From Lentzea fradiae (GTDB taxonomy: Bacteria; Actinomycetota; Actinomycetes; Mycobacteriales; Pseudonocardiaceae): a stretch of 64,000 nt of DNA. The stretch spans positions 1 through 64,000 of the forward strand of contig NZ_FNCC01000024.1 of assembly GCF_900100955.1 (NCBI RefSeq), given 5' to 3'. The translations under genes and the position numbers were made by a program. Shown piece by piece: positions 2,031 through 64,000 of the stretch. The notes below the pieces were generated by a model. It had not been told where the DNA came from. It made no database searches and was given only the letters and a program-made list of their open reading frames with translations. How positions within the stretch are numbered: position 1 is the first letter of the stretch; each line of letters opens with the position of its first letter.

Positions 2031-2073
2031 GCCGTCCCGCGCGGGCGGGTGAACCAGAAAGGCGGCACCACCC

Positions 2074-3130: not shown

Positions 3131-3134
3131 CCCG

Positions 3135-6035: not shown

Positions 6036-6060
6036 CCGGCCAGAACGAGGAGCAACCCCG

Positions 6061-6495: not shown

Positions 6496-6521
6496 GCGCG
6501 GGCAGCGGGAGGAGACGGACC

Positions 6522-8980: not shown

Positions 8981-9000
8981 CCACGTGAGGAGATCGCGAC

Positions 9001-17911: not shown

Positions 17912-18039
17912 CTCACCTGCCTCCCCGAAGGCTCCTCCGGCCGCGGCGCACGTCTCCTCGTGGCGCGGCCCGCTGCCGGCACGGCCGCCCGCGCCGACGC
18001 TCGATCACCCGCCGTGGCCGGCGTGCACGTCCGCTCTTC

Positions 18040-46300: not shown

Positions 46301-49300
46301 AGGTCCGGCACGGGCCGGTTCACCCGTCGCACCACGACGCTGTCCCCGGAGCTGTGGAGCGGGTTCCGCCGGCACGCGGCGGCGCACGGCCTCACGCCGA
46401 GCGCCGCGTTGTTCACCCTCTACGCGGAAGTCCTCGCCCGGTGGAGCGCGCGGTCGCGCTTCACCGTGAACACCTTGGCGAGCAACAGGATGCGGCTCGA
46501 CCCGGCGACCGGGCAGATCGTCGGCAACCTCTCCACCACGCTGCCGGTCGTCGTCGACCACACGACCCCCACCGCGTTCGCCGACCGCGCCGTGGCGCTG
46601 CAACAACAGATCGTGCGGGATCTGCAACACGCCGGGATCAGCGGTGTCGCCCTGTTGCGCGACATCGCCGCGGCCAAGGGATGGGCGCCCGACAACGTGC
46701 TGCCGGTCGTGTTCGCCAGCACTCTCGACGTGGACGGCGACTTCCAGCCGCCGCCGTTCGACCTCACGCTGCTCGGCAGTGGGCTGCAAACCCCGCACGT
46801 GCACCTGGACCACCAGGTCTACGACTACGGCGGCGAGTTCGTCGCGCACTTCGACAGCGTCGACGACGTCTTCGAACAGGACGTTCCCAATCACCTCCAC
46901 GCCGCCTACGAACGAGGGCTGCGCGCGCTCGCCACCGATGAGGCCGCGTGGCGCTCCGAACACGTGATCCCGGACGACGACGTTCCCGCCGTGGAGCAGG
47001 CGGACGGTCCGCTCGTGCTGGACGACCGCGGACTGCTGCACTCCCGCGTGGTCGGCCGGGCCGTGGAACACCCGCGGGTGCCCGCTGTCATCGCCGAGGA
47101 CCGCACGCTCGACTACGGAGAACTGCTCGCACGGGCCCGCGGCGTCGCCGCGGCGCTGACCGCGGCCGGTGTCGTGCGCGGCGACCTCGTGGCACAGGTG
47201 CTGGCGCGCGGCTGGGAGCAGCCCGTCGCGATGATCGGCACCCTGCTCGCCGGTGCCGCCTACCTGCCGGTGGACCCCGACCTCCCGGACGCCCGCGTGG
47301 CGCACCTGCTGGAGCAGGCCACCACGCCGGTGGTGCTGACCGGGTCCGCCCTGCTCGGCCGTCTCACCGGTCTCGGTGCCGAGCCCCTCGACGTCGGCGC
47401 GTGCGACACCGGTGCGGCAGCCGAGGCCGACGCCGGTCCGGCGGCACCCGGCGACGTCGCCTACGTCATCTTCACCTCCGGGTCGACCGGCACCCCCAAG
47501 GGCGTCGTCATCGAGCACCGGGCAGCGGTCAACACCGTCGCCGCCGTCAACGAGCGGCACGGGCTGGGCCCGCGGGACCGCGTCCTCGGGCTGTCGTCGA
47601 CCGGGTTCGACCTGTCCGTCTGGGACGTGTTCGGCACGTTGTCGGCCGGCGCGACCCTGGTCCTGCTCCACCCCGGGCAGCACCGGGAACCGGCGCACTG
47701 GCTGCGGCTCGTCGAGCGGCACCGGGTCACGGTCTGGAACTCCGTGCCCGCGCTGCTGGACCTGTACGTGTCCTATGTGGACATGGTCGGCGCGGCGGCG
47801 CCGGACTCGCTCAGGCTCGCGCTGCTCAGCGGCGACTGGATTCCGGTGCGCCTGCCCGACGCGGCGCGCGCCGCCGTCCCAGGGCTGGAGGTCGTCAGCC
47901 TCGGCGGGGCGACCGAGGCCGCCATCTGGTCGATCGAGCACCCCGTCACCACCGTGGAACCGGACTGGGTGAGCATCCCGTACGGGACGGCGCTGCCGGG
48001 GCAGGGCGTGCACGTCCTCGACGACCACCTGCGGCCGTGCCCCGACCACGTGACCGGCGAGCTGTACATCTCCGGCCACGGGCTCGCCAGGGGGTACTGG
48101 CGGCGCCCCGACCTGACGGCCGAACGCTTCCCCCACCTGCCGGGCACAGGCCACCGGCTCTACCGGACCGGCGACCTGGGACGACGGCGGCCGGACGGCG
48201 TCATCGAGTTCCTCGGCCGCGAGGACGACCAGGTCAAGGTCCAGGGACACCGGATCGAGCTGGGGGAGATCGAGGCGCACCTCGCCGAGCACCCCGGCGT
48301 CCAGGCCGCCGTGGTCGTCACCCGGCCCAACGCCGCCGGCGGGCACCACCTGGTGGGGCACGTCGTCCCGGCGCCGGGTGCGAGCTGGGACGAGGAGGCG
48401 CTGGTCGAGCACCTCCGCCGCCGGCTGCCCGCTTACATGGTGCCCCCGCGGCTGGTCCGGATCGACGCCTTGCCCTTGAGCCCCAACGGCAAGGTCGACC
48501 GGCGCGCCCTGCCCGCCGAGCCCGTGACGCCGTCGGGAACCGGTGCGGAGGAGACGGTCGCCGACGACTTCGAGCACCTGGTCGGTGCCGCCATGGCCGA
48601 CGTGCTGGGGCTCGGCGCGCCGGTCGCCCCGGACGGCGACTTCTTCGCGGAAGGGGGGAACTCGTTCGCCGCCCTGCGGCTCGCGGGACGGTTGCGCGAG
48701 CTGACCGGGACCGAGGTGCGGTTGTCCCTGCTGTTCCACTTGCCCCGGCCGCGCGACCTGGCCGCCGCGGTGCGCGACGCCGGTGGTGACCCCCGTGTCC
48801 AGCCGTCGATCGTCCCGCTGCGCCCGGACGGGACGCTGACCCCGCTGTTCCTCCTGCACCCCGTCGGGGGATCGGTGATGTGCTACCGGGACCTCGTCTC
48901 GGCCCTGCACCGGGACCGGCCTGTCATCGGGCTGCAACGGCACGGGCAGCCGGCCGGCTCGTCGGTCCTCGACCTCGCCGCCCACTACGCCGACCTGGTC
49001 GAGTCGGTGCGCCCCACCGGTCCCGTCGCGGTCGGCGGGTGGTCCATGGGCGGTGTGCTGGCCTTCGAGGTCGCCGGACGCCTCCGCGAGCGGGGCCGCG
49101 ACGTGGCCCTCGTCCTCGCCGTCGACTCGGCACCCGAGACCGGCCCGCCCCCGGAGGGCGACCACGCGGTGGCGTCGTTCCTCACCGACCTGCACGGCGG
49201 CCGGGAACCGGACAGGTCCGAGGTCGAGGAGCTGGCCGCCGCCCTCCGGGGCGACGAGACCGGCAGGCCCGACGCGGCCGCGTTGCGCGACCGCTACGCC

Positions 49301-49555
49301 CTGTTCCTGGACAACAGCGCCGCACTGGCCCGGCACCGCGCCGAACCGCGGGACCTCCGCCTGGTCCTCGTCGGCGGCGGACGCTCGGCCATCCCCGTGC
49401 ACGACGCGCAGCGGGCGTGGGGACGGCTCGTCACCGCGCTGCGCATCGAGGTCCTCGACGGCGAGGACCACCACGGGGTCGTGCGGGACTCCGCCGCGAA
49501 GTCCGTCGCGGCGCTCATCGACGACGAGCTCAGGGAGGTGGACGCGACGTGGTGA
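43376..49555 (+). CDS. Bimodular NRPS: A-T-Cy-A-T-TE
   Basis: A 2059-aa synthetase. After about 155 unassigned residues come A1 (about 160-660; FTSGTTGLPKG near 307), T1 (Ser710 in GGHSL), a Cy-type condensation domain (about 765-1190), A2 (about 1230-1720; FTSGSTGTPKG near 1363), T2 (Ser1763 in GGNSF) and a thioesterase (about 1785-2059; Ser1890 in GWSMGG). Pocket residues of A2 read D-L-W-N-L-S-L-I-W-K, one change from a known cysteine code. A1 reads D-I-W-Q-V-T-T-D-D-K, which I do not recognise. Cy plus cysteine predicts a thiazoline. The Cy motif reads SLLLVDAHS (901-909), with Ser for the first Asp of DxxxxDxxS. Confidence 0.93.
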   Translation: MTDHRTTTAFTLGARLPAHRTPRAADAPAEVLGRSTFRRPEHLRPTTVAGALARLCARYGGVEQADLERLVDADSVAAPLVVDTGSADGPPLRWTFTPVDDHVELVVSGTPSWWFPGTVQLMADQLARLITEPENSSDDVFSAAELTALAEFARAGEPPWDLDTCLLEFVRDQASLLPDHVAVADASGETTYSELIAEAEGIAGELRQHSGPGDLVALVVDRGAHLIAAMLATWHNRTAFLALEPDADPATARKLVEAAGVVCVVTTHDHLDAVRTLDLPVVTAPSAPPAAPQAADDCCRPADLAYVMFTSGTTGLPKGVGVDHLGMLNHARAKIADLQITEHSVIAQCGPIGFDILVWQCVAGLAVGARVEVFSNDEVQDVARLLARVDERAVTVWQAVPSLIRAALDTAGVLGLRHLRWLVPTGDALPSDLCRDWLDRYPDVPVLNTYGSTECSDDQCHHVITAVTEDDPAIMWIGAPIPGMATYVLDPAGRLLPPGVPGELHIGGVGVGPGYVGRPDLTAAKFPDDPFAGLPGARMYRSGDLVRQRPDGVLEFFNRIDDTVKIRGRRLEVGGTEAALRALPEVKDCAVAVHKPSHDLTDAVLVAHVVPADPAADEEVLRATVLEHARRVLHPDVTPHAVVVLDALPLSANGKVDRRALPAPGLTRSQGQAVAPADEVETRLAELWAKLLGLTEVGRHDNFFTLGGHSLVAARLLSAVRDDFGVAVTLPDLFDEPTVEGLAKAVRRAAPAPGPVAETLAEDLVPGEPFPLSDLQQAYWVGEDDYFTGGGTKAHLHVEFDSAGLDLDRAALAVDRVVARHDALRLVVTPDGRQRVLADVPPFRPEMVDLTGLDPRTAEDRLGEIRADYRDHGGTTSTWPLFDATAVRLPGGRTRVFFRISLLLVDAHSENVLIAEWLAAYRGGGLPVAEPHGAYRRAVTAVQALADPRQRARARAHWSERLADLPPAPALPAARRSGTGRFTRRTTTLSPELWSGFRRHAAAHGLTPSAALFTLYAEVLARWSARSRFTVNTLASNRMRLDPATGQIVGNLSTTLPVVVDHTTPTAFADRAVALQQQIVRDLQHAGISGVALLRDIAAAKGWAPDNVLPVVFASTLDVDGDFQPPPFDLTLLGSGLQTPHVHLDHQVYDYGGEFVAHFDSVDDVFEQDVPNHLHAAYERGLRALATDEAAWRSEHVIPDDDVPAVEQADGPLVLDDRGLLHSRVVGRAVEHPRVPAVIAEDRTLDYGELLARARGVAAALTAAGVVRGDLVAQVLARGWEQPVAMIGTLLAGAAYLPVDPDLPDARVAHLLEQATTPVVLTGSALLGRLTGLGAEPLDVGACDTGAAAEADAGPAAPGDVAYVIFTSGSTGTPKGVVIEHRAAVNTVAAVNERHGLGPRDRVLGLSSTGFDLSVWDVFGTLSAGATLVLLHPGQHREPAHWLRLVERHRVTVWNSVPALLDLYVSYVDMVGAAAPDSLRLALLSGDWIPVRLPDAARAAVPGLEVVSLGGATEAAIWSIEHPVTTVEPDWVSIPYGTALPGQGVHVLDDHLRPCPDHVTGELYISGHGLARGYWRRPDLTAERFPHLPGTGHRLYRTGDLGRRRPDGVIEFLGREDDQVKVQGHRIELGEIEAHLAEHPGVQAAVVVTRPNAAGGHHLVGHVVPAPGASWDEEALVEHLRRRLPAYMVPPRLVRIDALPLSPNGKVDRRALPAEPVTPSGTGAEETVADDFEHLVGAAMADVLGLGAPVAPDGDFFAEGGNSFAALRLAGRLRELTGTEVRLSLLFHLPRPRDLAAAVRDAGGDPRVQPSIVPLRPDGTLTPLFLLHPVGGSVMCYRDLVSALHRDRPVIGLQRHGQPAGSSVLDLAAHYADLVESVRPTGPVAVGGWSMGGVLAFEVAGRLRERGRDVALVLAVDSAPETGPPPEGDHAVASFLTDLHGGREPDRSEVEELAAALRGDETGRPDAAALRDRYALFLDNSAALARHRAEPRDLRLVLVGGGRSAIPVHDAQRAWGRLVTALRIEVLDGEDHHGVVRDSAAKSVAALIDDELREVDATW

Positions 49556-51627
49556 CGGAGAACCACTTCGGCACTGTCATCGAGGACCCGCACCGGTGGA
49601 TGGAGAACACCGCGAGCGCGGAGTTCCGCGACTGGGTCACCGCCCAGGGCGAGGCCGCGGAGCGGTGGTTCGCCGCCCGGCCGGACCGGGAGGACGTCGT
49701 CGCGCGGGTCGCGAAGGCGTGGGACGGCCTGGTCGAGCTGAGCAACGTGCAGGTCGCCGCGACCGGTGTGCACTGCATGGTCAGGGGCAGCGGCGAGGAC
49801 GTGCCGTCCCTGGTCAGGCTGGACCCCGGCACCGGCGCGGCCGAGGTCCTGGTGGCACCGGACCGGATCAGCCTGCCCGACGTCCGCTCGCACATCAGCA
49901 TCGACTGGTACACGCCCTCGCCGGACGGCCGCCACATCGCGGTCGGCGTGTCCCACGACGGCACCGAGGACCACGTCCTGCTCGTCGTCGACCGGCACGG
50001 GGAGTTCGTCCCGGACCTCGCGGTGCCGCGGATCATGCCGTTGCGCACCAACCGCGCCAGCATCGGCGGGGTGGCCTGGGCCCCCGACAGCTCCGGGTTC
50101 TGCTACCTCCAGTGGCGCGAGCTGCGCGAGGGCGACGACCCCGCGACCCGCTACCAGGACGCGGCCACCTGCTACCGCGCGGTCGACCGCCTCGACGTGG
50201 AGCACGTCCTGCTGCGCGGGAGCCTGGACCCGGAGGTCGGCCTCGACCCGGACGACGTGCCCCTGGTGACCTTCGCCGACCGGGACACGCTGGTCGCGAC
50301 GATCGTGCACGGGTCAGCCAAGGAGCGGACCCTGCACCTCGCCGACGCCGCCGGGCTGGGCTCGCCGTCGCGGCTGTCCTGGCGGCGCGTGGCGGTCCCG
50401 GCCGACGCGGTGCACGTCTGGACCGCGGGCGCCGGGTACCTCTACACCGGCGGGCCCGTCACCGGTGGCTGGCGGATCGACCGCGTACCGCTCGACGACC
50501 CCGCTCCCGGCAACCGGCGGCTCGTGGCCACCGGACACGACGAGGCGCTGGAGGACATCGGGTTCGTGCGCGACCGCCTGCTGCTGCGGTGCCTCGTCGA
50601 CGGAGCGGCCGGACTGCGCGTGGTGCGGCCTGACGAGGGTGCCGACGTGGTGCCGGTCCGTTTGCCGTTCCCGTGCGGCATCCCCAGCTGGGGGTGGACC
50701 GACGTCGGCGACGTGCACGTGCTGCTGTCCTCGTGGACCCGTCCGCCCGGTGTCTGGCGGCTCGACCAGGAGGCGTCGGCCCTCGTCCCGGTGCCCGCCC
50801 CCGGAGCGGCCGGTGACGTCGCGGACGCCGCCGTGTCCTGGCAGGAGCAGGTGACCGCCTCCGATGGCGTCGAGGTGCCGCTGACGATCGTCGGCGCGCC
50901 CGGCGTGCGTCGTGACGGTGAGCGCCCCGTCCTGCTCACCGCGTACGGCTTCTTCGGCATCACCCTGCGACCGGCCTACAACCCGGCGCTGCGGGTGTGG
51001 ACCGACCTCGGCGGCCTGTTCGCCGTCGCCCACGTGCGCGGAGGCGGTGACCGCGGCGACGACTGGTACCGCGCCGGGCACCGCGAGCACAAGGAACGCA
51101 CGATCCAGGACTTCCTCGACTGCGCGGAGCACCTCGTCGCCCGCGGCTACACCGCACCGCGCCTGATCACCGCCGAGGGCACCAGCGCGGGCGGCCTCAC
51201 CGTCGGCGGTGCCATGGTCCGGCGCCCCGACGCGTTCGGCGCGGTCGTGCTCAGGGTGTCGCTCACCAACACCCTCCGCCTGGAGATGCACGAGAACGGC
51301 CCGCCCAACATCCCCGAGTACGGCACGGTCACCACCCCGGAAGGACTCGCGGCACTGCTCATCACCGACACGTGCCGCAGGGTGCGCGACGACGTCGCCT
51401 ACCCGCCGGTGCTGCTGACCGTCGGGCTCAACGACACGCGCGTCCTGCCCTGGCAGCCCGCCAAGCTCACCGCCGCGTTGCAGGCGGCCGCGGGGTCGCG
51501 GGCACCGGTCCTGCTCCGCGTCGAGCACCACGGCGGCCACGGCGTCGGCGCGTCCAAGAACCAGATCGACGGCGAGTTCGCCGACCGGCTCACCTTCGCC
51601 CTGGCCCACCTGCGAGAGGAACACTGA
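49552..51627 (+). CDS. Prolyl oligopeptidase-family (S9A) serine peptidase
   Basis: This 691-aa peptidase has an N-terminal EDPHRWMEN motif, a seven-blade propeller region (about 70-420) and an alpha/beta-hydrolase domain. The triad is Ser545 in GTSAGG, Asp628 in GLNDTRV and His663 in HHGGHG. The conserved AYGFFGITLRPAYNP segment marks the S9A subfamily. No signal peptide is seen, so it acts in the cytoplasm. The GTG at 49552 overlaps the NRPS stop (49549 is an alternative). S9 peptidases inside NRPS clusters often cleave leader residues or inactivate the product for self-protection. The choice between these is inference. Confidence 0.9.
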   Translation: MTENHFGTVIEDPHRWMENTASAEFRDWVTAQGEAAERWFAARPDREDVVARVAKAWDGLVELSNVQVAATGVHCMVRGSGEDVPSLVRLDPGTGAAEVLVAPDRISLPDVRSHISIDWYTPSPDGRHIAVGVSHDGTEDHVLLVVDRHGEFVPDLAVPRIMPLRTNRASIGGVAWAPDSSGFCYLQWRELREGDDPATRYQDAATCYRAVDRLDVEHVLLRGSLDPEVGLDPDDVPLVTFADRDTLVATIVHGSAKERTLHLADAAGLGSPSRLSWRRVAVPADAVHVWTAGAGYLYTGGPVTGGWRIDRVPLDDPAPGNRRLVATGHDEALEDIGFVRDRLLLRCLVDGAAGLRVVRPDEGADVVPVRLPFPCGIPSWGWTDVGDVHVLLSSWTRPPGVWRLDQEASALVPVPAPGAAGDVADAAVSWQEQVTASDGVEVPLTIVGAPGVRRDGERPVLLTAYGFFGITLRPAYNPALRVWTDLGGLFAVAHVRGGGDRGDDWYRAGHREHKERTIQDFLDCAEHLVARGYTAPRLITAEGTSAGGLTVGGAMVRRPDAFGAVVLRVSLTNTLRLEMHENGPPNIPEYGTVTTPEGLAALLITDTCRRVRDDVAYPPVLLTVGLNDTRVLPWQPAKLTAALQAAAGSRAPVLLRVEHHGGHGVGASKNQIDGEFADRLTFALAHLREEH

Positions 51628-52667
51628 TGTCCGCGGATGACATGCTGCTGCTGGACCGCGCCGCGGTCGAACGGTGTCTGGCGGCCGTCGACCCGGTCGC
51701 CGTCGTGGAGACGACGCTGCGGGCACACGCCGACGGCCGCACCCAGCTGCCCGCCGAGGGATACCTGAGCTGGACCAACCGGCACGGCGCGTACTCCCGG
51801 TCGCTCGCGATGCTCGGCTCGGTCACCGACCCCGAACCCGTCTACGGGCTCAAGGTCGTGAACGCGGCGACCAGCAACCCCGGGTTCGGGCTGGACCGGG
51901 CGGGCGGCGTGGCCATGCTGTTCGACCCGGAGACGGCCCGGCCGGCGGTGCTCGCCGAAGCGGCCGTGCTCAGCGCCCTGCGCACCGCGGCCTACACGGT
52001 GCTGTCGCTGCGCCACCTCGGGCCGGAGTCACCGGACGCCGTCTCGGTGCTCGGCTGCGGGGCGCTGGCCCGCACCCACCTGCGGCTGCTGGCGAAGGAC
52101 CCCGGCATCACCAGGGCGTTCGCGCACGACCTCGACCCGGCGCGCGCCCACGCCCTGCGCGACTGGGCCGCCACCGAGATCCCGAGCGTGACGGTGGACG
52201 TCGTGCCCGACGCCGAGAGCTGCGTCGCGGCCAGCTCGGTGCTGATCACGGTGACCACCTCGTCGTCGCCCTACATCCCGCCGTCCTGGTTCACCCGGCC
52301 CACGTTCGTCGCGCACGTCTCGCTCGACGACGTCGACACCGACGTGTTCCGGGAGGCCGAGGCCGTCTACGTCGACGACCTCGAGCTCGTCGTCGACAAC
52401 CCCCGGCGCATCCTCGGCGCCCTGCTCGGCGCGGGCACGCTCGACCCGGACCCGTCCGGCGCCCGGCCGCGCGTCGAAGGCAGCCTCGCCGACGTGCTGG
52501 ACGGCCGGGTGCCCGCCGTGCGTCCCGTGCGGGGCAACGTCGTGTCCAACCCGTTCGGCATGGCCGTGCTCGACGTCGCCCTGCTCGCGGCGGTCGTCGC
52601 CAACGCCCGCGCGACCGGCGAGGGCGTGCTGATCAACCTCGTGGACGGTCTTCGTGCGAACGCCTGA
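51627..52667 (+). CDS. SbnB/ornithine cyclodeaminase-family dehydrogenase
   Basis: This 346-aa protein of the ornithine cyclodeaminase/mu-crystallin family has an N-terminal substrate domain (LPAEGYLSWTNRHG and VYGLKVVNAATSNPGFGLDR) and a Rossmann domain (VSVLGCGALARTHLRLL). SbnB-type members oxidise the SbnA product N-(1-amino-1-carboxyethyl)-glutamate to 2,3-diaminopropionate and 2-oxoglutarate. VioK plays this part in viomycin biosynthesis. With the SbnA-like gene at 54884 and the carbamoyltransferase next door, this role is likely here. It starts on the last base of the previous stop (TGATG). Confidence 0.87.
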   Translation: MSADDMLLLDRAAVERCLAAVDPVAVVETTLRAHADGRTQLPAEGYLSWTNRHGAYSRSLAMLGSVTDPEPVYGLKVVNAATSNPGFGLDRAGGVAMLFDPETARPAVLAEAAVLSALRTAAYTVLSLRHLGPESPDAVSVLGCGALARTHLRLLAKDPGITRAFAHDLDPARAHALRDWAATEIPSVTVDVVPDAESCVAASSVLITVTTSSSPYIPPSWFTRPTFVAHVSLDDVDTDVFREAEAVYVDDLELVVDNPRRILGALLGAGTLDPDPSGARPRVEGSLADVLDGRVPAVRPVRGNVVSNPFGMAVLDVALLAAVVANARATGEGVLINLVDGLRANA

Positions 52668-53640
52668 CACGACGTGCGCCGGCGTCTCCGGCCTGCTGAG
52701 CAACGCGGACCTGACCGCCGACGAGGTCGCCGTCCTGGTCGAGCGCGCCGGCGCCTGGTTCCGCGACGGTCCACCGGCCACCAAACCGCTGGACGGCACC
52801 TTCGTGGGGATCTGGTTCGAGCTGACCTCGACCAGGACGCGCACCGCGTTCAGCGTGGGCGCGGGCAGGCTCGGTGCCACGCCGGTGCCGCTGTCCGGGG
52901 CGGAGCTGCAGACCTCCACCGGTGAGACGCCGGAGGACACCGCGAGGGTGCTCGGCGGGATGGTCGACGGCATCGTCGTCCGCAGCACCCACTCCACCGC
53001 GCGGCTGGCGGCCTTGGAGGCCGCGGCCGGGGTGCCGTTCATCAACGCCATGGCCGAGGACGAACACCCCACGCAGGGGTTGTGCGACCTCGCCACCCTG
53101 GCGGTGCACTTCCCGCGGTTGTCGGGACTGCGGGTCCTCTACGTCGGCGAAGGCAACAACACCGCGAGCGCCTTGGCGCGCGCGGCGGCGAAGGTGCCCG
53201 GCCTCGCGGTGACCTTCGCCGTCCCGGAGGGGTACGGCCTGCCGGAACAGCTGGTGCGGTCCGCGCACGAGGAAGCGTCCCGCGAGGGCGGTCTCGTCGA
53301 GCAGTGCCACGACGTGGGCCGGCTCGGACGTGACGTCGACGTCGTCTACACCACCAGGTGGCAGACCACGGGCACGAGCAAGAGCGACCCCGCGTGGCGC
53401 GAGCGGTTCGAGCCCTTCCGGGTCGACGACGCGTTCCTGCGGCGCTTCCCCGGAGCGTTGTTCATGCACGACCTCCCCGCCCACCGCGGCGACGAGGTCA
53501 CCGGGGACGTGCTCGACGGCCCGCGCTCGATCGCCTGGTCGCAGGCGCGGATGAAGTTGTACAGCGCGATGGCGGTGCTCGCGCACGTCTTCGCCCGGCC
53601 GCTCGGCGACGCCGCGGACCGGATCGACCGGACGAGGTAG
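52654..53640 (+). CDS. Ornithine carbamoyltransferase-like enzyme with altered amine site
   Basis: This 328-aa aspartate/ornithine carbamoyltransferase-fold protein has intact carbamoyl-phosphate motifs (STRTRT near residue 55, EDEHPTQGLCD near 135). The amine-binding motifs differ from true ornithine enzymes: HCLP is HDLP (Asp273 in FMHDLPAHRG), and the SMG-type loop reads VVYTTRWQTTG. It therefore probably carbamoylates another amine. VioL of viomycin biosynthesis, which acts on diaminopropionate to give beta-ureidoalanine, is the closest functional model in context. It overlaps the SbnB-like gene by 14 bp. Confidence 0.87.
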   Translation: MRTPDTTCAGVSGLLSNADLTADEVAVLVERAGAWFRDGPPATKPLDGTFVGIWFELTSTRTRTAFSVGAGRLGATPVPLSGAELQTSTGETPEDTARVLGGMVDGIVVRSTHSTARLAALEAAAGVPFINAMAEDEHPTQGLCDLATLAVHFPRLSGLRVLYVGEGNNTASALARAAAKVPGLAVTFAVPEGYGLPEQLVRSAHEEASREGGLVEQCHDVGRLGRDVDVVYTTRWQTTGTSKSDPAWRERFEPFRVDDAFLRRFPGALFMHDLPAHRGDEVTGDVLDGPRSIAWSQARMKLYSAMAVLAHVFARPLGDAADRIDRTR

Positions 53641-53645
53641 GGGAA

Positions 53646-54884
53646 ATGGTGCGCAACGTGAACGGTGAAGTCCTGTTCGTGGAAAGCAACCTCACGGGGT
53701 ACAACGCGATCGCGTTGTCGCTGGCGGCGGAACAGGGGCTGCGCACGCACTTCGTCGCGCGTGACCCGCGTGAGTACGTCGGCATGAAACCCGACGTGCT
53801 GTCGCTCGCCGACAGTGTGTCCGTTGTGGACACCTACGACGTGGGCAAGCTGCTCAGCTTCGCGCAGCAGCGTTCGGTGATCGGCATGGTGGCCGTGGAC
53901 GACTACCGCCTGATTCCCACGGCCGTGACCGCGCAGCAGCTCGGGCTGCCGCACGCCGACGTGAACGGTCTCGTGCAGACGCATTTCAAGGACCGCGCGC
54001 GGGTGCTCACCAAGGGCATCGGGCGCACCGTCGAGCACGCCGTGTTCAGCCCGGACCAGGACGAGGTGACGAGTTCCCCCATCGGGTACCCGTGTGTCGT
54101 CAAACCGGTCGACGACAGCGGCAGCACCGGTGTCCGGCTGTGCCACGACGACCGGGACTTCGCCGAGGCGGTGGAGCGCGCCCGCGAGGTCCGCCGCAAC
54201 CTGCGCGACTACCTGTGCTCGCCCCACCTGCTCGTCGAGGAGTACGTCCCCGGTGTCGAGTACACCGCGGAGTGCATGTGGGACACCGTGCGCGGCCGCT
54301 GGCAGCTCATCGGCTACACGAAGAAGCTGCTGGGCCCGCCGCCGTTCCCGGTGGAGACCGGCGCGGTGTTCCCGTACTTCTTCGAGCCGGAGTTCGACCG
54401 CGTGGTGGAGGAGACGGTGTACGCGTGGCTGGCGGCCACCGGTCACCGCCACGGCTCGGCGCACGTCGAGTTCAAGGTCGACGGGGACTCCGTCGCGCTC
54501 ATCGAGATCAACCCGAGGCTCGGTGGCGACCAGATCCGCGACCTGATCCGGCTCACCAGCGGTGTCGACCCGATCGACCTGTACATGGGCCTCTACCTGG
54601 GCCGTGACGTGCGGGTGGAGCGCGCCCCGCGCACCGGCCGGTACGCCACCAGCTTCTACAAGCTGCCCGCCCGCCTCGGCCGGGTCGTGTCCGTCCGCGC
54701 GCCGGAGGGCGACTACGAGGGCGTCGTGCGCAGCAACCTCACCACGCAGCCCATGGACGTCACCGGCGTGCGCGACAACGATGACCGGCTCGGCTACGTC
54801 ATCACCACGGCCGACGACTTCGACAGGTCGATCCGGCTCGCCGAGCTGTTCATGGACGACGTCGCCGTGGAGTACCAGTCGTGA
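53646..54884 (+). CDS. ATP-grasp carboxylate-amine ligase
   Basis: This 412-aa ATP-grasp protein has the central glycine-rich loop YPCVVKPVDDSGSTGVRL (about 150-167), EEYVPGVEYTAE and the metal-binding FKVDGDSVALIEINPRLGG (about 280-298). The family forms amide or peptide bonds by acyl-phosphate chemistry, as in L-amino-acid ligases and DdaF of dapdiamide synthesis. It could join a diaminopropionate or ureidoalanine unit to another acid without an NRPS module. The ATG at 53646 follows TAGGGGAA. It lies 5 bp after the carbamoyltransferase and shares codon bases with the SbnA-like gene. Confidence 0.88.
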   Translation: MVRNVNGEVLFVESNLTGYNAIALSLAAEQGLRTHFVARDPREYVGMKPDVLSLADSVSVVDTYDVGKLLSFAQQRSVIGMVAVDDYRLIPTAVTAQQLGLPHADVNGLVQTHFKDRARVLTKGIGRTVEHAVFSPDQDEVTSSPIGYPCVVKPVDDSGSTGVRLCHDDRDFAEAVERAREVRRNLRDYLCSPHLLVEEYVPGVEYTAECMWDTVRGRWQLIGYTKKLLGPPPFPVETGAVFPYFFEPEFDRVVEETVYAWLAATGHRHGSAHVEFKVDGDSVALIEINPRLGGDQIRDLIRLTSGVDPIDLYMGLYLGRDVRVERAPRTGRYATSFYKLPARLGRVVSVRAPEGDYEGVVRSNLTTQPMDVTGVRDNDDRLGYVITTADDFDRSIRLAELFMDDVAVEYQS

Positions 54885-55843
54885 TGTTCGAGTCCTACGC
54901 CGACGTCGGCGGCGGCACCCCCTTGGTCCGGCTCAAGCGCCTGTTCGCGGGGCACGACGTGGACGTGCTCGCGAAGCTGGAGTTCCTGAACCCCGGCGGG
55001 AGCATCAAGGACCGCCCGGCGCGCCACGTCGTGCGCCAGTGGCTCAGGCAGGGGGTGCTGCGGCCGGGGATGCGGGTCGTCGAGAGCACGTCGGGCAACT
55101 TCGGCGTCGCGCTCGCCGCCCAGGCCAGGGCCCACGACCTGGCGTGCACGCTGGTGGTCGACCCGCTCGTGCGCCCGCTCAACCTCGCCCTGATGCGGCA
55201 GCACGGCGCCGAGGTGGTCCAGGTCGACCGCAAGGACTCCCAGGGCGGCTACCTGCACACGCGGCTCGCCGAGGTGCACCGCATCCTCGCGGCGGACCCG
55301 CGGGCGGTGTGGGTCAACCAGTACGCCAACCCGCTCAACTGGCAGGCCCACTACGAGGGCACGGGGGAGGAGCTGGTCGCGGACCTGCCCGGCCCTCCCG
55401 ACCACCTGGTGGTCGCGCTGAGCACGGGCGGCAGCCTCATGGGCACCGCGAGGCGCCTGCGCGAGTCGTACCCGGACGTCGAGGTGGTGGCGGTCGACGC
55501 GGTGGGATCGGTGATCTTCGGCGGACCGGCGGGTCCCCGCCGCATCCCCGGCATCGGCGCCAGCCGCCGGCCGGAGCTGCTCGACACCGACCTCGTCGAC
55601 CGGGTCGTGCACGTGACGGACGACGAGTCCGCCGCGGGGTGCCACGACCTGCTCGCGGCGGAGTCGATCATGGCCGGCGGCTCCTCGGGATCGGTGGTCG
55701 CCGCCATCCGCAAGCTCCTCCCGCGGCTGCGGCCGGGCGCCCGCGTCGTGACCCTCTTCCCCGACCGGGGCGAGAGGTACTTCGACGTGATCTACCAGGC
55801 GGACCCCGTCGTCGAACCCCTGCACGCCCACCTCATCGGATGA
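54884..55843 (+). CDS. SbnA-like PLP synthase (cysteine synthase family)
   Basis: This 319-aa fold-type II PLP enzyme has Lys42 in NPGGSIKDRPA, the substrate loop ESTSGNFGVALA and the PLP-phosphate loop STGGSLMGTARRL. Cysteine-synthase relatives such as SbnA and VioB condense O-phosphoserine with glutamate. The product is turned into 2,3-diaminopropionate by the SbnB partner. Residues near the N-terminus (GGGTPLVRLKRLF) match the subfamily layout. The ATG at 54884 overlaps the previous stop, and a GTG at 54881 is equally possible. O-phosphoserine use would link it to phosphorylated intermediates of the cluster. Confidence 0.87.
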   Translation: MFESYADVGGGTPLVRLKRLFAGHDVDVLAKLEFLNPGGSIKDRPARHVVRQWLRQGVLRPGMRVVESTSGNFGVALAAQARAHDLACTLVVDPLVRPLNLALMRQHGAEVVQVDRKDSQGGYLHTRLAEVHRILAADPRAVWVNQYANPLNWQAHYEGTGEELVADLPGPPDHLVVALSTGGSLMGTARRLRESYPDVEVVAVDAVGSVIFGGPAGPRRIPGIGASRRPELLDTDLVDRVVHVTDDESAAGCHDLLAAESIMAGGSSGSVVAAIRKLLPRLRPGARVVTLFPDRGERYFDVIYQADPVVEPLHAHLIG

Positions 55844-55875
55844 CCACACCCACCCGCCGGAAGGAACCCAAGAGC

Positions 55876-57040: not shown

Positions 57041-58261
57041 GTGAGCACTGCTGCCGGATTGTGGAACCGCGTCCTGCCCTCGGGATGGCGGGAGTTGCCC
57101 AAGGTGGTCTGGGTGCTGGTCGCGGCGCGGGCGGCGAACCGGCTGGGCGCGTTCACGCTGCCCTTCCTCAGCCTCGTGCTCGTGCAGGAGTTCGGCGTGT
57201 CCGTGGCCGTGGCGGGCCTGCTGATCACCGGGTTCGGCGCCGCGACCATCCCGTCCCGCCTGCTGGGCGGCCGGTTCGCCGACCGGATCGGGCGCAAGGT
57301 CACCATCGTCATCGGTCTCGTCGGCTGCGCCGTGGCCCAGCTGCTGGTCGCCGCGACGAGCAGCCTGGTCGTCGTCGCGGTCGCGGTGCTGATCCTGGGC
57401 CTGGCGTTCGAGCTGTACGAACCGCCGAGCCAGGCGATCATCGCCGACGTCACCACGCCGGAGCACCGGTCGGCGGCCTACGGCCTGCTCGGTGCCGCCC
57501 TGGCCGGCGCGGCCGTCGGAGCGGGTCTGCTGGCCGCGTGGATCGGCCAGTTCAGCCTGCGGTGGCTCTTCGTCATCGACGCCGCCACCTGCCTCGCGTG
57601 CGCCCTGGTCGTGCTGTTCGTCCTGCCCAACGCGGAACGCGAGGTCAAGAGCGAGGAAGAACCGGTCCGCGCCCGCCCGTGGCGCGACCCCGGCCTGATG
57701 GCGATGCTCGCCGCGGGCACCGTGTTCGCCGTCCTGTACTACCTGATCACCTTCGGCGTCCCCCTCACCCTGGTCGAGCGTGGCCTGTCGGCCGAGCAGT
57801 TCGGCCTGCTGCTGGCGCTGGGGGCGTTGACCATCGTGCTCGGGCAGCCGCTGCTGGCGATGAGGAAGGTGGAGCAGCTCAACGACTTCACCGCCATGAC
57901 GATCGGGTACCTGCTGCTCGGCACGGGCCTGCTCGGCTACGCGGTGGCCACCAGCTTCACCGGCTTCGTCGTCGCCACGGTGATCGAAAGCGTCGGCGAC
58001 CTGGTCCTGCTCGGCAGGGCGTACTCGGTGGTGGCGACGCTGGCACCGGAACACGCGCGGGGGCGGTACATGGCGGTGTTCGGCACCAGCTGGGGTGCCG
58101 CCGCGGTCATCGCCCCGCTGGGCGGCATGCGGCTGCTCGACCTGACCAACGGGTTCGTGTTCTGGGTGACCTGCGCGGCGGCGTGCGCGGCACTGGCCGT
58201 CGCCCAGCCGTTCCTGCGCAGGTACCTGTCCGTCGCGCCCAAGCAGGAACTCGCGGCCTGA
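57041..58261 (+). CDS. MFS drug/product exporter
   Basis: This 406-aa major facilitator has 12 predicted helices. The motif-A loop reads GGRFADRIGRKV between helices 2 and 3 (about residues 77-88), and a second copy-like loop follows helix 8. It is of the DHA1 12-helix drug-efflux type and likely exports the peptide product, giving self-resistance. GTG 57041 follows CGGAAGG. A strong hairpin directly after the stop may lower transcription of the genes downstream. Confidence 0.9.
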   Translation: MSTAAGLWNRVLPSGWRELPKVVWVLVAARAANRLGAFTLPFLSLVLVQEFGVSVAVAGLLITGFGAATIPSRLLGGRFADRIGRKVTIVIGLVGCAVAQLLVAATSSLVVVAVAVLILGLAFELYEPPSQAIIADVTTPEHRSAAYGLLGAALAGAAVGAGLLAAWIGQFSLRWLFVIDAATCLACALVVLFVLPNAEREVKSEEEPVRARPWRDPGLMAMLAAGTVFAVLYYLITFGVPLTLVERGLSAEQFGLLLALGALTIVLGQPLLAMRKVEQLNDFTAMTIGYLLLGTGLLGYAVATSFTGFVVATVIESVGDLVLLGRAYSVVATLAPEHARGRYMAVFGTSWGAAAVIAPLGGMRLLDLTNGFVFWVTCAAACAALAVAQPFLRRYLSVAPKQELAA

Positions 58262-58325: not shown

Positions 58326-60188
58326 ATGCCGGCTCTGCAAGCTGTCGTGCGCCACGACGACGTGGCCGAGTACGAACGGACCGCTGCCGGGTGGCGGCCG
58401 GGTGAGGCGTTCCCGGTTCTCGACGGAGCCGCGCTCACCCGCTACGAGGACGTGCTGCGTGCCGAGGGACGTCCGGAGCTGCCCGCCGTCACCGCGACGG
58501 CGTGGCCGGGCGCTGTGGCTTCCCTCGGTGCCGCGGCGACGCACGCGGCTGGAGCGCTCCTCGCGGCCGCGACCTCCCGCCCGCACCACCGCACCGACCT
58601 GACGAGCCTCGGCGGCCTGCTCGACTCGCTGCACGACGTCCCGGTCGCGCTGGTCGCCACGGCCGATGACCTGGCAGACCTCGGCGACTGGCCGGGCATG
58701 CGCCACCCCGGGCTCGGCGTGGTGACCGCGCGCAGCGCCGAGTCGCTGTCGTGCCTGATCTACCGCACGCTCACGGTCCAGGCCCGCGCGTCGTCGCGTG
58801 ACGTCGTCGTCACCCACCCCATGGCCGCCGGTGCCGACGAGGCGGACGCGGTGGCGTTGGACGAGCTGCGACCGCTGGTGCGCGGGCCGGTCACGTCCCT
58901 GCGCGTGCTCTCCCACGGCCGGGAGTGCTGCCTGCTGCTGCCCGACGGGCTGGTCTGCGGCCGGGGCACCGCGGAGCCGCCCGCGGACGTCGACCCCGCC
59001 CTGCGCGTCAGGTTGCCGTCCTGCCTGCGCGGCGAGGGCTGCTGGCGGCAGGACCTCGGCGACGAGGACCGGATCGCCGCCTCGTCGATCGACACGCGCC
59101 TGGCGTTCCTGCAGACGTGCAGCTCGGTCGCGGTGGGCAACAACGCGCACCCGCCCTCGGTCGGGGTCGGGCTCGGCTTCCTGGAGGGCACGACCGTCGC
59201 CGTGGTCGGCACGATCGGCCTCCACGTGGCTTACCGGCCGTTCTACGACGACCTCGCCGGCGCGTTGCACGGCGGCGCGCGCCTGGGGGAGGCGGTGGCA
59301 CGGCTCAACCAGGTCGCTGTGGCCGAAGGTGGCGAGTCCGCCCGCTTCGGACTGCTCGGCGATCCGGCCCTGCCCGTCGACGTGCCCGCGAGCATCACGC
59401 GCGAGGCGCGCCGTGCACCCGAGGTGGAGCCGGTCGACGACCAGCTGATCGCCGCGCAGACCGTCCTGGGCCGGTTGCGCTCGCTGCTGGCGCTGGAGCT
59501 GCCGTTGGACGAAGGACGGCTCACGACCCTGGAGCAGGTCGCCCGCCGCGGCCTCCTCGCGCGCGGTCAGCGTCAGGTCGACGCGCTGCGCGAGGTCCGG
59601 CAGGGGGTGGACGAGCTCCAGTCGAGCACGACGCGCGAGCTCGTGCACCAGGTCCACGACACGTGGTGGGGCTTCTTCGGTGATCGGGCCAGGGCGTTCC
59701 GGCAGGTGGACGCGGTACCGGTGGCCTGTCCCCAGTGCGGCCGCGACAGCGCGGTCCGGGTGGAGATGGCGCACCGCCTGCCCGTCGGGCTCACGGTCTT
59801 CGCGTTGCAGTGCCGCCGGTGCGGCGACCTGTCCTGGTCGACCGCCCGGACCCCGGCGGTCGAGCTGACCACGAACCACGTGGTCCACGCGCCCAAGGTC
59901 CAGGACAACGGCCTCACCGGCACCTTCGCCAACCGCGGTGACACGGCCGTGCTCGGGCACGTCGGCTTCGCCTTCGTGGCGGGCGGGGTCGGCGACCTGC
60001 CGCGGGGCAGGTCGCGACCGGTCCACGTGCCCGGCGGGGCGACGGCCAGGGAGACCTGGCGGTTCCGCCTGGACGAACGGGTCCAGGCGGCGGAGCGCTA
60101 CGCCGTCGTCACCGGCCTGGTCGAGGGCGAACACCAGTGCTCCTACGTCTTCGTCAACGTCCTGCCCCGGGATCGGGAGGTCCGATGA
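58326..60188 (+). CDS. Caspase-fold (C25/CHAT-like) protease candidate with zinc ribbon
   Basis: This 620-aa protein appears to be a clan CD-type cysteine peptidase. A putative catalytic His197 lies in VLSHGRECC. Cys265 lies in FLQTCSS after a beta-strand, 68 residues later. The gingipain-type closing motif FGLLGDPALP follows at 341-350. A helical region leads to a zinc ribbon with Cys468/Cys471 (CPQCG) and Cys496/Cys499 (CRRCG), then a beta-sandwich-like C-terminus (about 510-620). No signal peptide is seen. It starts at ATG 58326 after CGGGGGAA and overlaps the C-T gene by 4 bp. Its role is unknown: precursor cleavage, immunity or a regulated death switch are options. Confidence 0.75.
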   Translation: MPALQAVVRHDDVAEYERTAAGWRPGEAFPVLDGAALTRYEDVLRAEGRPELPAVTATAWPGAVASLGAAATHAAGALLAAATSRPHHRTDLTSLGGLLDSLHDVPVALVATADDLADLGDWPGMRHPGLGVVTARSAESLSCLIYRTLTVQARASSRDVVVTHPMAAGADEADAVALDELRPLVRGPVTSLRVLSHGRECCLLLPDGLVCGRGTAEPPADVDPALRVRLPSCLRGEGCWRQDLGDEDRIAASSIDTRLAFLQTCSSVAVGNNAHPPSVGVGLGFLEGTTVAVVGTIGLHVAYRPFYDDLAGALHGGARLGEAVARLNQVAVAEGGESARFGLLGDPALPVDVPASITREARRAPEVEPVDDQLIAAQTVLGRLRSLLALELPLDEGRLTTLEQVARRGLLARGQRQVDALREVRQGVDELQSSTTRELVHQVHDTWWGFFGDRARAFRQVDAVPVACPQCGRDSAVRVEMAHRLPVGLTVFALQCRRCGDLSWSTARTPAVELTTNHVVHAPKVQDNGLTGTFANRGDTAVLGHVGFAFVAGGVGDLPRGRSRPVHVPGGATARETWRFRLDERVQAAERYAVVTGLVEGEHQCSYVFVNVLPRDREVR

Positions 60189-61687
60189 GCACGACAGACA
60201 CGACCGCGGCCGGGACCCGGCAGTGGCGGGAACCGCCGGAGGCCGTCGCCCAGATGCTGCTCGCCGCGCAGCTCGCGCCCGTGTCGAGCTACACCATCGA
60301 CGTCCGTGCGGAGCTCGTCGGTGTTTCGGCCGACGCGGTGCGCCGCGCCGCCGCGGAGCTCGTCGTCCGCTATCCCGAGCTCGGTGCCGAGGTGGACACG
60401 ACCGACGACGGGGGCTTCCGCTGGAGGCCCGGCCCGGCGACCCCCTGGCTGCCGACCTCGGCGACCACCGGCGACGGTCCGGCCGACCGGGTCTTCGACC
60501 AGCTCGCGGCCACCGCGGACGAGGCGCCCGGCACCCCGCTGTTCCAGCTCGTGCTCTCCGGCGGGCCGCCCACGCGCGTGCTCGTCCGCGCCCACCACGC
60601 GATCGCCGACGGCCCCGGCCTCGCGGCGCTCGTGACCGAGCTGGCCGAGCTGGCGACGGCCGATGCCGCCGTTCCCCAGCGCCGGACCAGCGCTTTCGCC
60701 GCGCCACCCCACCCCGCACCCGCGGCGGCGGCCCGGGAGGACTGGGAGGGCCAGCTCGCGTTGCTGGAGGCCACCGGCCCCGCGGTGGACCGGGCCGGTG
60801 ACGACGACCGGCCGGCGGTCACGGCCCGCGCGACGCTCGACCGCGAGGTGCTCGGCGAACTGGCCAGGGCTGCGCGGGCGACCCCCACGGCCGTCCTGCT
60901 CGCCGCCACGCGCGTCGCGGTGGCCCGCCGGTTCGGGTGGTCGCTCCAGCGGCTCACGGTCCCCCTGGCCGCCGAGGGCGACCGGCTGCTCGCCATCCGC
61001 CCGCTGCCGGTTCCGCACCCCCTTCCCGTCTCCGGCTCCGTCCGCTCGGCGATCGACTCCTCGGCGGACGCCCTGTTCGACGCGCTGGACCGCGGCGCGC
61101 CCCCGGCGGACCTCGTCGGCAGGCTCAGCAGCAGCGTCGTCCCCGGCGTGCCGGACTGCCTGCTCACCGTCAACACGGCGGCCGGCGTGGCACCGGAGCA
61201 CCCGGCGGTGCGCGTGCACCCCGGCCCGCACCGGGGCGCACCCGGACTGCTGGCCGTGGAGCTGACGGGCGACGACCTGCGGCTGTCCGGCCACCCCGCC
61301 CACTTCACCGCGGACGACCTCGCGGGGTTCGCGGAGGAGCTGGCCGCGGTGCTCGCCGCCCCCGACGCCCCGGCGATCCCGGACGGCCGCTCGCTCACCC
61401 CGGTGCCCGCGACGTCCGCCACGCCCGGAGCACGACGTGCCGCGACCGAGGCCACCTCGGACGACCTCGAACGCTGCCTCGCCGTGTGGCGCGGTGCGTT
61501 CGGGGACCAGGTCGGGCCGGACGACGACCTCTTCGCCTTGGGCGCCAACTCCTTCACGTGCGCCCGCGTGGCGGCTCGCCTGCGGGCGGCCACGGCGCGC
61601 CCCGTGACCATCCGCGTCCTGTACCGGCACCCGACGGCGCGTGCGCTCGCCGCCTGGGTCGCCACCACTCCGCCACAAGACCGTTGA
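60185..61687 (+). CDS. Stand-alone NRPS condensation-carrier protein (C-T)
   Basis: This 500-aa protein has a condensation-type domain (about 15-410) with an intact active-site motif, HHAIADG, near residue 138, but a shortened N-lobe. A carrier domain (about 425-495) with LGANSFTCARV holds the phosphopantetheine serine. It could accept a residue activated by a separate adenylation protein and condense it with the chain made by the bimodular NRPS, or release it onto an amine. It begins at an ATG overlapping the caspase-like gene's stop. Confidence 0.87.
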   Translation: MSTTDTTAAGTRQWREPPEAVAQMLLAAQLAPVSSYTIDVRAELVGVSADAVRRAAAELVVRYPELGAEVDTTDDGGFRWRPGPATPWLPTSATTGDGPADRVFDQLAATADEAPGTPLFQLVLSGGPPTRVLVRAHHAIADGPGLAALVTELAELATADAAVPQRRTSAFAAPPHPAPAAAAREDWEGQLALLEATGPAVDRAGDDDRPAVTARATLDREVLGELARAARATPTAVLLAATRVAVARRFGWSLQRLTVPLAAEGDRLLAIRPLPVPHPLPVSGSVRSAIDSSADALFDALDRGAPPADLVGRLSSSVVPGVPDCLLTVNTAAGVAPEHPAVRVHPGPHRGAPGLLAVELTGDDLRLSGHPAHFTADDLAGFAEELAAVLAAPDAPAIPDGRSLTPVPATSATPGARRAATEATSDDLERCLAVWRGAFGDQVGPDDDLFALGANSFTCARVAARLRAATARPVTIRVLYRHPTARALAAWVATTPPQDR

Positions 61688-61710: not shown

Positions 61711-62577
61711 ATGGACATCCCCAACGTGGCCCTGCGCGTCGCGGACGTGCACCGCAGCAAGGACTTCTACACCCGCTGGGTGGACTTCACCGCTTCTCCG
61801 CGCGGGGAGCTGTCGGCGGACGTGCTGGAGATCCTCGACAAGGACGGCGATCCGATGCTCCTCGCGGGCCCGGCCGCCGAGGACGTGACCGCGCACCTGG
61901 CGGAGCGCCACGCCGTCTTCGCCCCCGGTGAGAGCAGCTTCGTGTTCCGGGTCGACGACGTCGAGCAGCGCGCGAAGGCAATGCGCGAAGGCGGGCTCGA
62001 CCAGGCCACCGTCACGACCACGCGGTGGGGCGACAAGGTCCTGGCCGTGCCGGACGAGGACGGCTACACGCTCAAGTTCCTGCAGGAGGCCGTGCTCGAC
62101 GACCAGCAGGTCCTCGACCTGTTCGCCTCCGGGCCCGACGAGCTGGAGCGGGCCCTGGACGGGGTGACCGAGCGCGAGCTGGAGATCACCGACTCCGGTG
62201 GCGTGTGGACGTCCCGCGCGATCGTGCACCACATCTGCGACGGTGACCTGCAGTGGCTGGGCGCGATCATGGCGGCCCTGGTCCAGCCGGGCTACCTCTA
62301 CAACCACAACTGGTACACCACCGACCGCCGCTGCGCCGACCAGCTGTCCTACGACACCCGGCCGGTCGACGGCGCGCTGCGGCTGTTCCGCTCGCTGCGC
62401 GAACACCTCGCCGAACTGCTGACCGGTGTGCCCGGCGCGCTGGACCGCGAGGTCCGCTTCAACCCGCCGCACGACCCCGAGGGGTCGCCCCTGGCCGTGC
62501 GCGAGGTGCTCCGCCGGCGCGCCATCCACACGTTGCAGCACATCGACGAGGTCCGCGAGCTGCGCGACCCCGCCTGA
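61711..62577 (+). CDS. VOC-DinB fusion protein
   Basis: This 288-aa protein joins a glyoxalase/bleomycin-resistance (VOC) fold (about 1-125; NVALRVADVHRSKDFYTRWV, VLAVPDEDGYTLKFL) to a DinB four-helix domain (about 125-288). The DinB part has His residues in IVHHICDGDLQW and HTLQHIDE that suit a metal site. VOC proteins often bind and neutralise a cluster's own product. DinB proteins are often thiol-dependent transferases. A self-resistance role is therefore likely, though enzymatic tailoring cannot be excluded. It starts 23 bp after the C-T gene. Confidence 0.85.
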   Translation: MDIPNVALRVADVHRSKDFYTRWVDFTASPRGELSADVLEILDKDGDPMLLAGPAAEDVTAHLAERHAVFAPGESSFVFRVDDVEQRAKAMREGGLDQATVTTTRWGDKVLAVPDEDGYTLKFLQEAVLDDQQVLDLFASGPDELERALDGVTERELEITDSGGVWTSRAIVHHICDGDLQWLGAIMAALVQPGYLYNHNWYTTDRRCADQLSYDTRPVDGALRLFRSLREHLAELLTGVPGALDREVRFNPPHDPEGSPLAVREVLRRRAIHTLQHIDEVRELRDPA

Positions 62578-62992: not shown

Positions 62993-64000
62993 TCAGGCCA
63001 TGGTCGACACCAGGTCGGCCAGCGCCGCGCAGCTCTCGGCGCGCAGCACGTCGCGGAACCTCAAGCGCACCGAGAACTCGTTCTCGATCGCCGTGGCCAG
63101 CCGCATCGCGGACAGCGAGTCGCCACCGGCGGTGATGAAGTCGACGTCGTGGGGTGCGGCGGCTCCCAGCGCGCTGGACCACAGCGTGCGCAGCCGTCCC
63201 CCTCCTTGGTGGGAGGGAGCGCCGTCCGCCGACCACGGCTCGGCGGCGAGCAGCGACCGGACCTCGGCGCGGTCGACCTTGCCGTGCTGGTTCACCGGCA
63301 GTTCCGGCACCGCCACGACGACCTCGGGGAGCATGTAGTCCGGCACGTGCGCGGACATGGCGGTGCGCACCGCGCTCCGCAGCTGCGTCCCCCGTGAGGG
63401 CAGGTCGGTCACGACGACCAAGCCCAGGCGCGGCGAGCCGTCCGGAGCGGGCACGTCGGTGGCTGCCGCCCGGCTGACGCCGCCGACCAGCAGCGCCGCC
63501 CGTTCCACCTCCTCCGGCGCGACCCGGAAGCCGCGCACCTTCAGCCCGCCGTCGGCCCGTCCGAGGAAGTCGATCTCGCCCTGGTGCGTCAGGCGCACGA
63601 GGTCACCGGTGAGGTAGACCGGTCCGTCGACGCCGTCGACCGGGCGGGTGCCCGGCAGACCGGGGCGGCACGGCACTCCGCCGATGCCCAGCACGCCGGG
63701 CCGCCCGACGGGCACGCCGCGGCCGTCGTGGTCCACCACGCACAGCACGGAGCCGGGGATCGGCCGCCCGAGCTGCGGCGCGCCACGCCGGGACTCGGCG
63801 CCGCCGACGCGGTGGAACGCCACCGACACCCCGCACTCGGACGGGCCGTAGGTGCTCAGCAGGGTGACCGCTCCCCGGTGGCGCCGGACGAACGCGGCGG
63901 CCAGTGCCGGATCGTACGCCTCACCGCCGATGACCACGGCGCGCACGCACGCGGGCAGCCTCTCGTCGCGCCTGGCCAGGTGATCCGCCAGCACCGTCCA
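62993..64000 (-). CDS. NRPS adenylation-carrier protein (A-T), 5' end beyond the right edge
   Basis: The visible 335 residues are the C-terminal half of an adenylation domain (STYGPSECGVSVAF as A5, YLTGDLVRL as A7, GRADGGLKVRGFRV as A8, NQHGKVDR as A10 with its lysine) followed by a carrier domain (FITAGGDSLSAMRL). The specificity pocket is only partly visible, so the substrate is not predicted. As a free-standing A-T pair it could load the unit that the C-T protein condenses. It is convergent with the main operon and so separately controlled. Confidence 0.88.
   Translation of the reverse strand, partial: WTVLADHLARRDERLPACVRAVVIGGEAYDPALAAAFVRRHRGAVTLLSTYGPSECGVSVAFHRVGGAESRRGAPQLGRPIPGSVLCVVDHDGRGVPVGRPGVLGIGGVPCRPGLPGTRPVDGVDGPVYLTGDLVRLTHQGEIDFLGRADGGLKVRGFRVAPEEVERAALLVGGVSRAAATDVPAPDGSPRLGLVVVTDLPSRGTQLRSAVRTAMSAHVPDYMLPEVVVAVPELPVNQHGKVDRAEVRSLLAAEPWSADGAPSHQGGGRLRTLWSSALGAAAPHDVDFITAGGDSLSAMRLATAIENEFSVRLRFRDVLRAESCAALADLVSTMA

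Follow-up and report, generated by a model that had tools for sequence, protein, structure and literature searches.

What might a protein do that appears to join a caspase-like domain to a zinc ribbon and is encoded within a cluster for nonribosomal peptide synthetases (NRPS)? The question is raised by a gene of Lentzea fradiae, here called P0001, in the window, that is, the whole stretch of 64,000 nucleotides that was analysed. The initial annotation proposed a protease of the C25/CHAT type that could mature a pro-peptide, act as immunity or trigger cell death when the product accumulates; our analysis retains the kinship with such proteases and tentatively moves the function toward biosynthesis.

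Architecture of the protein and composition of the cluster

The P0001 gene, single-copy in its own 8.5-Mb genome, occupies 58326..60188 on the + strand, from an ATG at 58326 to a stop codon at 60186-60188, and encodes 620 aa. Translation places a His197-Gly198 pair (58914..58919), Cys265 (59118..59120), a Gly345-Asp346-Pro347 stretch (59358..59366) and a C468xxC471...C496xxC499 motif (59727..59822) at precisely the positions that had been assigned to them at the outset. On the open reading frame and the family alignments together, we describe the product as a putative caspase-like/zinc-ribbon protein, whose central domain (residues 100-362; 58623..59411) matches the C25, CHAT and C14 profiles in hhalign comparisons and carries an insert with Cys211, Cys233 and Cys239 (58956..59042; codons at 58956, 59022 and 59040). 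The zinc ribbon of residues 468-499, which the initial annotation had also recognised, holds up as two CxxC-type knuckles: Cys468, Cys471 and Cys496 are present in all 51 aligned family members and Cys499 in 50 of the 51, and the region has a profile match to PDB 1qyp (RNA polymerase II) with an E of 0.0014. The likeness to an RNA polymerase-type ribbon spans the CxxC...CxxC region, whereas the ribbon of P0001 is one part of a 620-aa metabolite-cluster protein. There is no strong membrane segment in P0001 or in 45 members by 19-residue Kyte-Doolittle means, the highest being 1.58 in P0001 and 1.88 among the members.

The surroundings of the gene likewise bear out what had been claimed for them. 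Pfam identifies the upstream gene (57041..58261, alternative start 57059; +) as an MFS exporter (PF07690, MFS_1, E 1.1e-53), and the gene downstream, at 60185..61687 (+), overlaps the P0001 stop codon by 4 nt and encodes an NRPS C-T protein whose T domain is a PP-binding match in Pfam (E 1.1e-9) and whose C domain is read from a custom profile and, by eye, from an HHAIADG motif, Pfam listing no condensation domain for 60185..61687. Further upstream on the same + strand stand an A-T-C-A-T-TE NRPS (43376..49555; Pfam domains, their order partly read from the translation), a prolyl-oligopeptidase-type S9 peptidase (49549..51627; PF00326, PF02897), an ornithine-cyclodeaminase-type protein that we take to be SbnB-like (51627..52667; PF02423), a carbamoyltransferase (52654..53640; PF00185/PF02729), an ATP-grasp amino-acid ligase-type protein (53646..54884; PF13535/PF18603) and a PLP-dependent enzyme, presumably SbnA-like (54884..55843; PF00291). 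The SbnA-, SbnB-, carbamoyltransferase- and ATP-grasp-type genes of 49549-57000 suggest a supply of diaminopropionate or ureidoalanine for the NRPS. Downstream, a glyoxalase/DinB fusion (61711..62577, +; PF00903, PF12867) is followed by the end of a 1886-aa NRPS on the - strand (62993..64000), which begins beyond the window at contig position 68653, and the contig continues, up to 73037, with a hydrolase-like protein, an A-T protein and a P450, functions assigned by eye. Two elements of this cluster recur around the Streptomyces avicenniae relative, namely an NRPS region (40% over 1106 residues) and, at 37% over 216, the hydrolase-like protein.

Family membership, clan CD kinship and conserved residues

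P0001 is apparently a member of an unnamed bacterial protein family. No Pfam, NCBIfam or PADLOC model matches it above cut-off, and PADLOC, with P0001 alone scanned, gives no family even up to an E of 10. A scan of 45 single members against Pfam and NCBIfam (E up to 0.1) turned up no model for caspases, CHAT or gingipains; the matches were scattered over 14 Pfam and 10 NCBIfam families, many of them zinc ribbons, with best E values of 0.0014 and 0.0026, respectively. The PDB sequence search returned zinc-ribbon matches and a weak match of the tail to 5x7g (E 0.022). Among the matches listed in the open literature, at title and abstract level and with subscription journals mostly outside the scope, no paper seems to describe the family, and neither caspase nor CHAT is mentioned in the available portions of PMC10445470 and PMC12154649.

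Ten of 390 genomes from the same taxonomic family yielded a relative (own genome counted; one of the ten, L011, being false), as did 9 of 394 from the class (own genome again counted), 34 of 394 from the family to which genome G623 belongs and 6 of 250 from that of genome G726, counts that come from overlapping searches and are not additive; identity to P0001 is 63% for the S. avicenniae relative and 34% for that of Nonomuraea gerenzanensis. The candidate L011/L022 (G359) was rejected, its frame reading by eye as an M20-type peptidase, L012 and L032 were dropped as second segments of matches L006 and L025, and the matched genomes G656, G738, G799 and G815 were left out of the analysis. The 51 members and neighbourhoods analysed comprise 45 recognised by a first profile and six more (L079, L082, L088, L090, L091 and L102) recognised by a second, which enter the counts out of 51; the tree and the Fisher tests, like every count out of 45, rest on the first set. 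The N. gerenzanensis member (L013) sits on NZ_LT559118.1, an 11.85-Mb record labelled as a plasmid, which looks like a chromosome in a plasmid collection.

A relationship of the central domain to the C25, CHAT and C14 families of clan CD is supported by profile-profile comparison, from which we infer a caspase-like fold. The profile of residues 100-362 from 45 members scores 48.2 against C25 (E 7.1e-6, probability 84%), 44.8 against CHAT (E 1.2e-5, 81%) and 31.0 against C14 (E 0.0017, 16%), the three profiles holding six (6 of 15 loci used), 33 and 25 sequences; 19 neighbourhood families used as controls score at most 21.3, and reversed profiles 14.5, 14.1 and 10.2 for C25, CHAT and C14. Since the known families score only 21.2 (C25-CHAT), 21.8 (C25-C14) and 29.6 (CHAT-C14) against one another, the P0001 family lies nearer to C25 and CHAT than these two lie to each other. 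Each of the three families has its Cys aligned with Cys265. The gingipain family C25 (PF01364) is the best profile match, its GDP lining up with residues 345-347, and it differs in that the P0001 family has a three-Cys insert, a zinc ribbon, a His that is absent in 10 of 51 members and a metabolite-cluster context. CHAT (PF12770) shares the Cys, and its His-Gly comes into line only when the alignment is relaxed, with low confidence per column; C14 (PF00656), although a weak match, shares both the Cys and the His-Gly in register with His197-Gly. The insert with Cys211, Cys233 and Cys239 has no counterpart in the alignments to CHAT and C14. Neither PF01364, PF12770 nor PF00656 is listed for any of the 45 members at E up to 0.1; in the Lentzea fradiae genome PF01364 has no match, the six matches of PF12770 are other genes and the sole match of PF00656 is another gene. 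AF2 models of P0001, built from two sequences only (its own and that of the S. avicenniae protein), are of low confidence, with a mean pLDDT of 32.5 at full length and 42.2 for residues 60-362.

The conservation of single residues sets Cys265 and His197 apart. Cys211, Cys233, Cys239, Cys265 and Gly345 are invariant, like the three ribbon cysteines named above, in all 51 aligned members, and within residues 100-361 of 45 members no column other than those four cysteines and Gly345 is invariant. His197 occurs in 41 of the 51 (Gly198 in 40/45) and is elsewhere replaced by Ala (four times), Leu (three times), Phe, Tyr and Asn (once each); in the closest clade it is found in four of nine members, namely those of the window, S. 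avicenniae, L015 and L066. Asp346, although invariant in the nine members of that clade, is kept in only 23/51 overall (Pro347 in 37/45), so that GDP is not a family hallmark. Members without His197 retain Cys211, 233, 239, 265, 468, 471 and 496. Spacing is nearly fixed within the region, at 14 residues from His197 to Cys211 in 39/45 and six from Cys233 to Cys239 in 38/45.

In a maximum-likelihood phylogeny of 45 members, three state changes, forced by well-supported branches, are needed to account for the nine without His197; His197 may have been lost three times, or lost twice and regained once. The tenth, L102, is not on that tree. A second His in the loop of residues 296-303 was considered as a substitute, being present in nine of nine His-less members against 22 of 36 others (p 0.04, 45 members), and was rejected, as L102 is without one and the nine stem from few tree events. 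Loss of His197 coincides with an NRPS gene within one gene in 7/9 members against 8/36, and this too, resting on few tree events, is only a hint of a tie between the two.

The initial annotation had staked its protease reading on a caspase-like fold and on the conservation of both residues across homologues, and the outcome that it named as refuting has come about in part, since His197 varies where Cys265 does not. Its claim of a C25/CHAT-type domain survives as regards the profile relation, the register of Cys265, the alignment with the GDP of C25 and the His-Gly register with C14, while His197 as an obligatory catalytic residue finds no support: the catalytic His of clan CD, present in P0001 itself, is not conserved across the family. 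For this reason, and because no C25, CHAT or C14 Pfam model matches, we do not file P0001 as a C25 or CHAT protein; by similarity, it may work like clan CD or descend from it. A classical protease would be expected to fix His and Cys and to vary in the rest; the family displays the reverse, which suggests either that part of the family uses Cys265 with no help from His197 or that this Cys serves a metal centre.

Genomic neighbourhoods across the family

The survey of neighbouring genes indicates that the metabolite-cluster setting, which had been noticed in the window, is a trait of the family and not a one-off. Amide-bond machinery (C, T, ATP-grasp, YcaO or class-II-aaRS-like genes) lies at most six genes away in 35/45 neighbourhoods against 4/40 control stretches (Fisher p 1.2e-10), and in 40/51 with the six later members added. 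Within the same distance ATP-grasp genes occur in 22/45 against 0/40, carrier domains in 18/45 against 2/40 and condensation domains in 13/45 against 2/40, and a C, A or T gene directly adjoins the member in 15/45 against 1/40; matches to the A domain alone (21/45 against 7/40) are a weak signal, since acyl-CoA synthetases match too. Kinship among the neighbourhoods flatters the Fisher p-values; once close clades are merged, leaving 33 neighbourhoods, amide machinery (here including A) is still present in 25 and C, A or T in 17. The controls, two stretches from each of 20 member-holding genomes, and the category of amide machinery itself were picked after the neighbourhoods had been seen, and the controls kept include L199, which overlaps the end of neighbourhood L021, and L183, an NRPS-containing stretch ~30 kb away from a member. 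Gene calling relied on a simple script and gene classes on profiles grown from single seeds, of which the MFS profile matched the window's own exporter only, so that no MFS count is given.

The contact is often close. In 15/45 neighbourhoods a same-strand neighbour overlaps the member or lies within 5 nt of it, and in 13 of these 15 at least one such neighbour matches A, T, C, ATP-grasp or P450: the NRPS-type genes are A-T (L013, L016, L065, L068), C-T (window), T and A (L075) and C-A-T (L019), the others ATP-grasp (L069-L072) and P450 (L015, L021), with no class match in L077 and L094. Pfam confirmed ATP-grasp/LAL, aaRS-like, YcaO, TfuA, radical SAM, DegT, PhzF, proline racemase and BtrH_N assignments among 30 chosen neighbours. 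Ten of the 45 neighbourhoods lack every type of amide machinery (C, T, ATP-grasp, YcaO, aaRS-like) within six genes, and four (L074, L083, L101, L103) have none of the eleven profile classes. The element common to these clusters, as far as their gene content tells, is amide-bond chemistry of any kind and not the carrier protein as such. What recurs in many actinomycete clusters for peptide-like metabolites is an apparently undescribed protein, one component that cluster annotations miss, and the family offers a search handle for unexplored clusters.

Several settings deserve mention in their own right. Class-II aminoacyl-tRNA-synthetase-like proteins recur near members L014, L015, L017, L021 and L067, with Pfam tRNA-synt_2 in L021 and L015. 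In L086 and L087 the member stands beside ArgC/ArgB-, transketolase-, DegT- and sulphate-activation-like genes (by eye), in L086 also beside a BtrH_N protein, a setting reminiscent of amino-group-carrier pathways. In L094 (9049-13775) the member is followed by one gene without a class and then by YcaO and TfuA, a setting outside NRPS chemistry.

Possible functions of P0001

The reading that we favour, at somewhat less than an even chance, is that P0001 is a cytosolic, cysteine-dependent biosynthetic enzyme, and not a conventional His/Cys protease or death effector, whose caspase-like domain works on an acyl or peptidyl intermediate and carries out one assembly step of small metabolites of peptide-like type. 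In this view an activated intermediate, bound to a carrier or made by a ligase, would give up its acyl or aminoacyl group to Cys265, which would pass the group on to an amine; alternatively, Cys265 would hydrolyse an amide bond of some pathway intermediate. Zinc bound by the Cys211/233/239 insert and by the C-terminal ribbon would shape the site and dock partner proteins. Zinc binding, covalent catalysis, the substrate and the biosynthetic nature of the step are, like the fold, what we infer. An enzyme that depends on a cysteine is favoured by the presence of Cys265 in 51/51 members in register with three clan-CD profiles and by the retention of all seven invariant cysteines in members without His197; a cytosolic and biosynthetic one is favoured by the amide-machinery context, the adjoining or overlapping biosynthetic genes and the lack of a strong membrane segment. 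Against it count the 10/51 members without His197, a loss that a classical His/Cys mechanism would not tolerate, the 10/45 neighbourhoods without amide machinery and 4/45 without any class, the great diversity of the clusters, which leaves no common substrate obvious, and the thioesterase domain (Pfam) that the window cluster already possesses. A bolder form of this proposal, conceivable though doubtful, is that a caspase-type fold has turned into an acyl- or aminoacyl-transfer enzyme, amide-forming or carrier-to-carrier, that operates across thiotemplate, ATP-grasp and possibly YcaO/TfuA clusters and in which a four-Cys centre or a lone Cys nucleophile replaces the His/Cys dyad.

The same cysteines may be read differently, namely as ligands, with Cys211, 233, 239 and 265 binding zinc or an iron-sulphur cluster in a non-peptidase of caspase-like descent that serves assembly enzymes as a scaffold or metalloenzyme partner. 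That residues 100-361 have no invariant column in 45 members besides these cysteines and Gly345, all five staying invariant in 51 too, would suit such a site, as would the near-fixed 14- and six-residue spacings (39/45 and 38/45) and the absence of His197 in 10/51 with three state changes on the tree; yet a pure metal site has no need of a His that is kept in 41/51 and aligned with that of C14, and no model brings the four cysteines together, those from AF2 being of low confidence, so that we rate this account as unlikely.

Decidedly unlikely, in our estimation, is a role in self-protection, with P0001 as a cytosolic peptidase degrading the peptide product. Peptide-type assembly genes lie in many neighbourhoods, an exporter adjoins P0001 in the window and some clusters hold other peptidase genes (S66- and S51-like by eye; S9 in the window); against this, His197 is absent in 10/51 members, the architecture is constant although products must vary widely between clusters, and an overlapping or abutting gene is of a biosynthetic class in 13/15. 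The overlaps with carrier, ligase and P450 genes argue for a compound-making step and not for product destruction or cell killing. A regulatory or cell-death protease, triggered by an accumulating product or precursor, is highly improbable: the CHAT/C14/C25 kinship of the domain and a zinc ribbon that could act as a sensor would agree with it, whereas P0001 has no PADLOC match, no TPR or effector domain in Pfam and no strong membrane segment, and its gene is embedded in biosynthetic operons.

The interest of the family rests on its steady place in metabolite clusters and on the broken dyad. P0001 may represent an unrecognised enzyme of antibiotic-type metabolite assembly; if it is indeed an enzyme, a caspase-like fold joins natural-product assembly chemistry, and the absent His beside an invariant Cys turns into a testable question of how such a fold works without the dyad.

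Elsewhere in the window, and unrelated to P0001, a gene run at 507-13544 resembles a contractile injection system, with sheath-, tube- and baseplate-like starts recognised by eye. Two long adjacent genes of 1143 and 1107 aa at 14480-21363 on the - strand have, by eye, the look of SARP/AfsR-type regulators.
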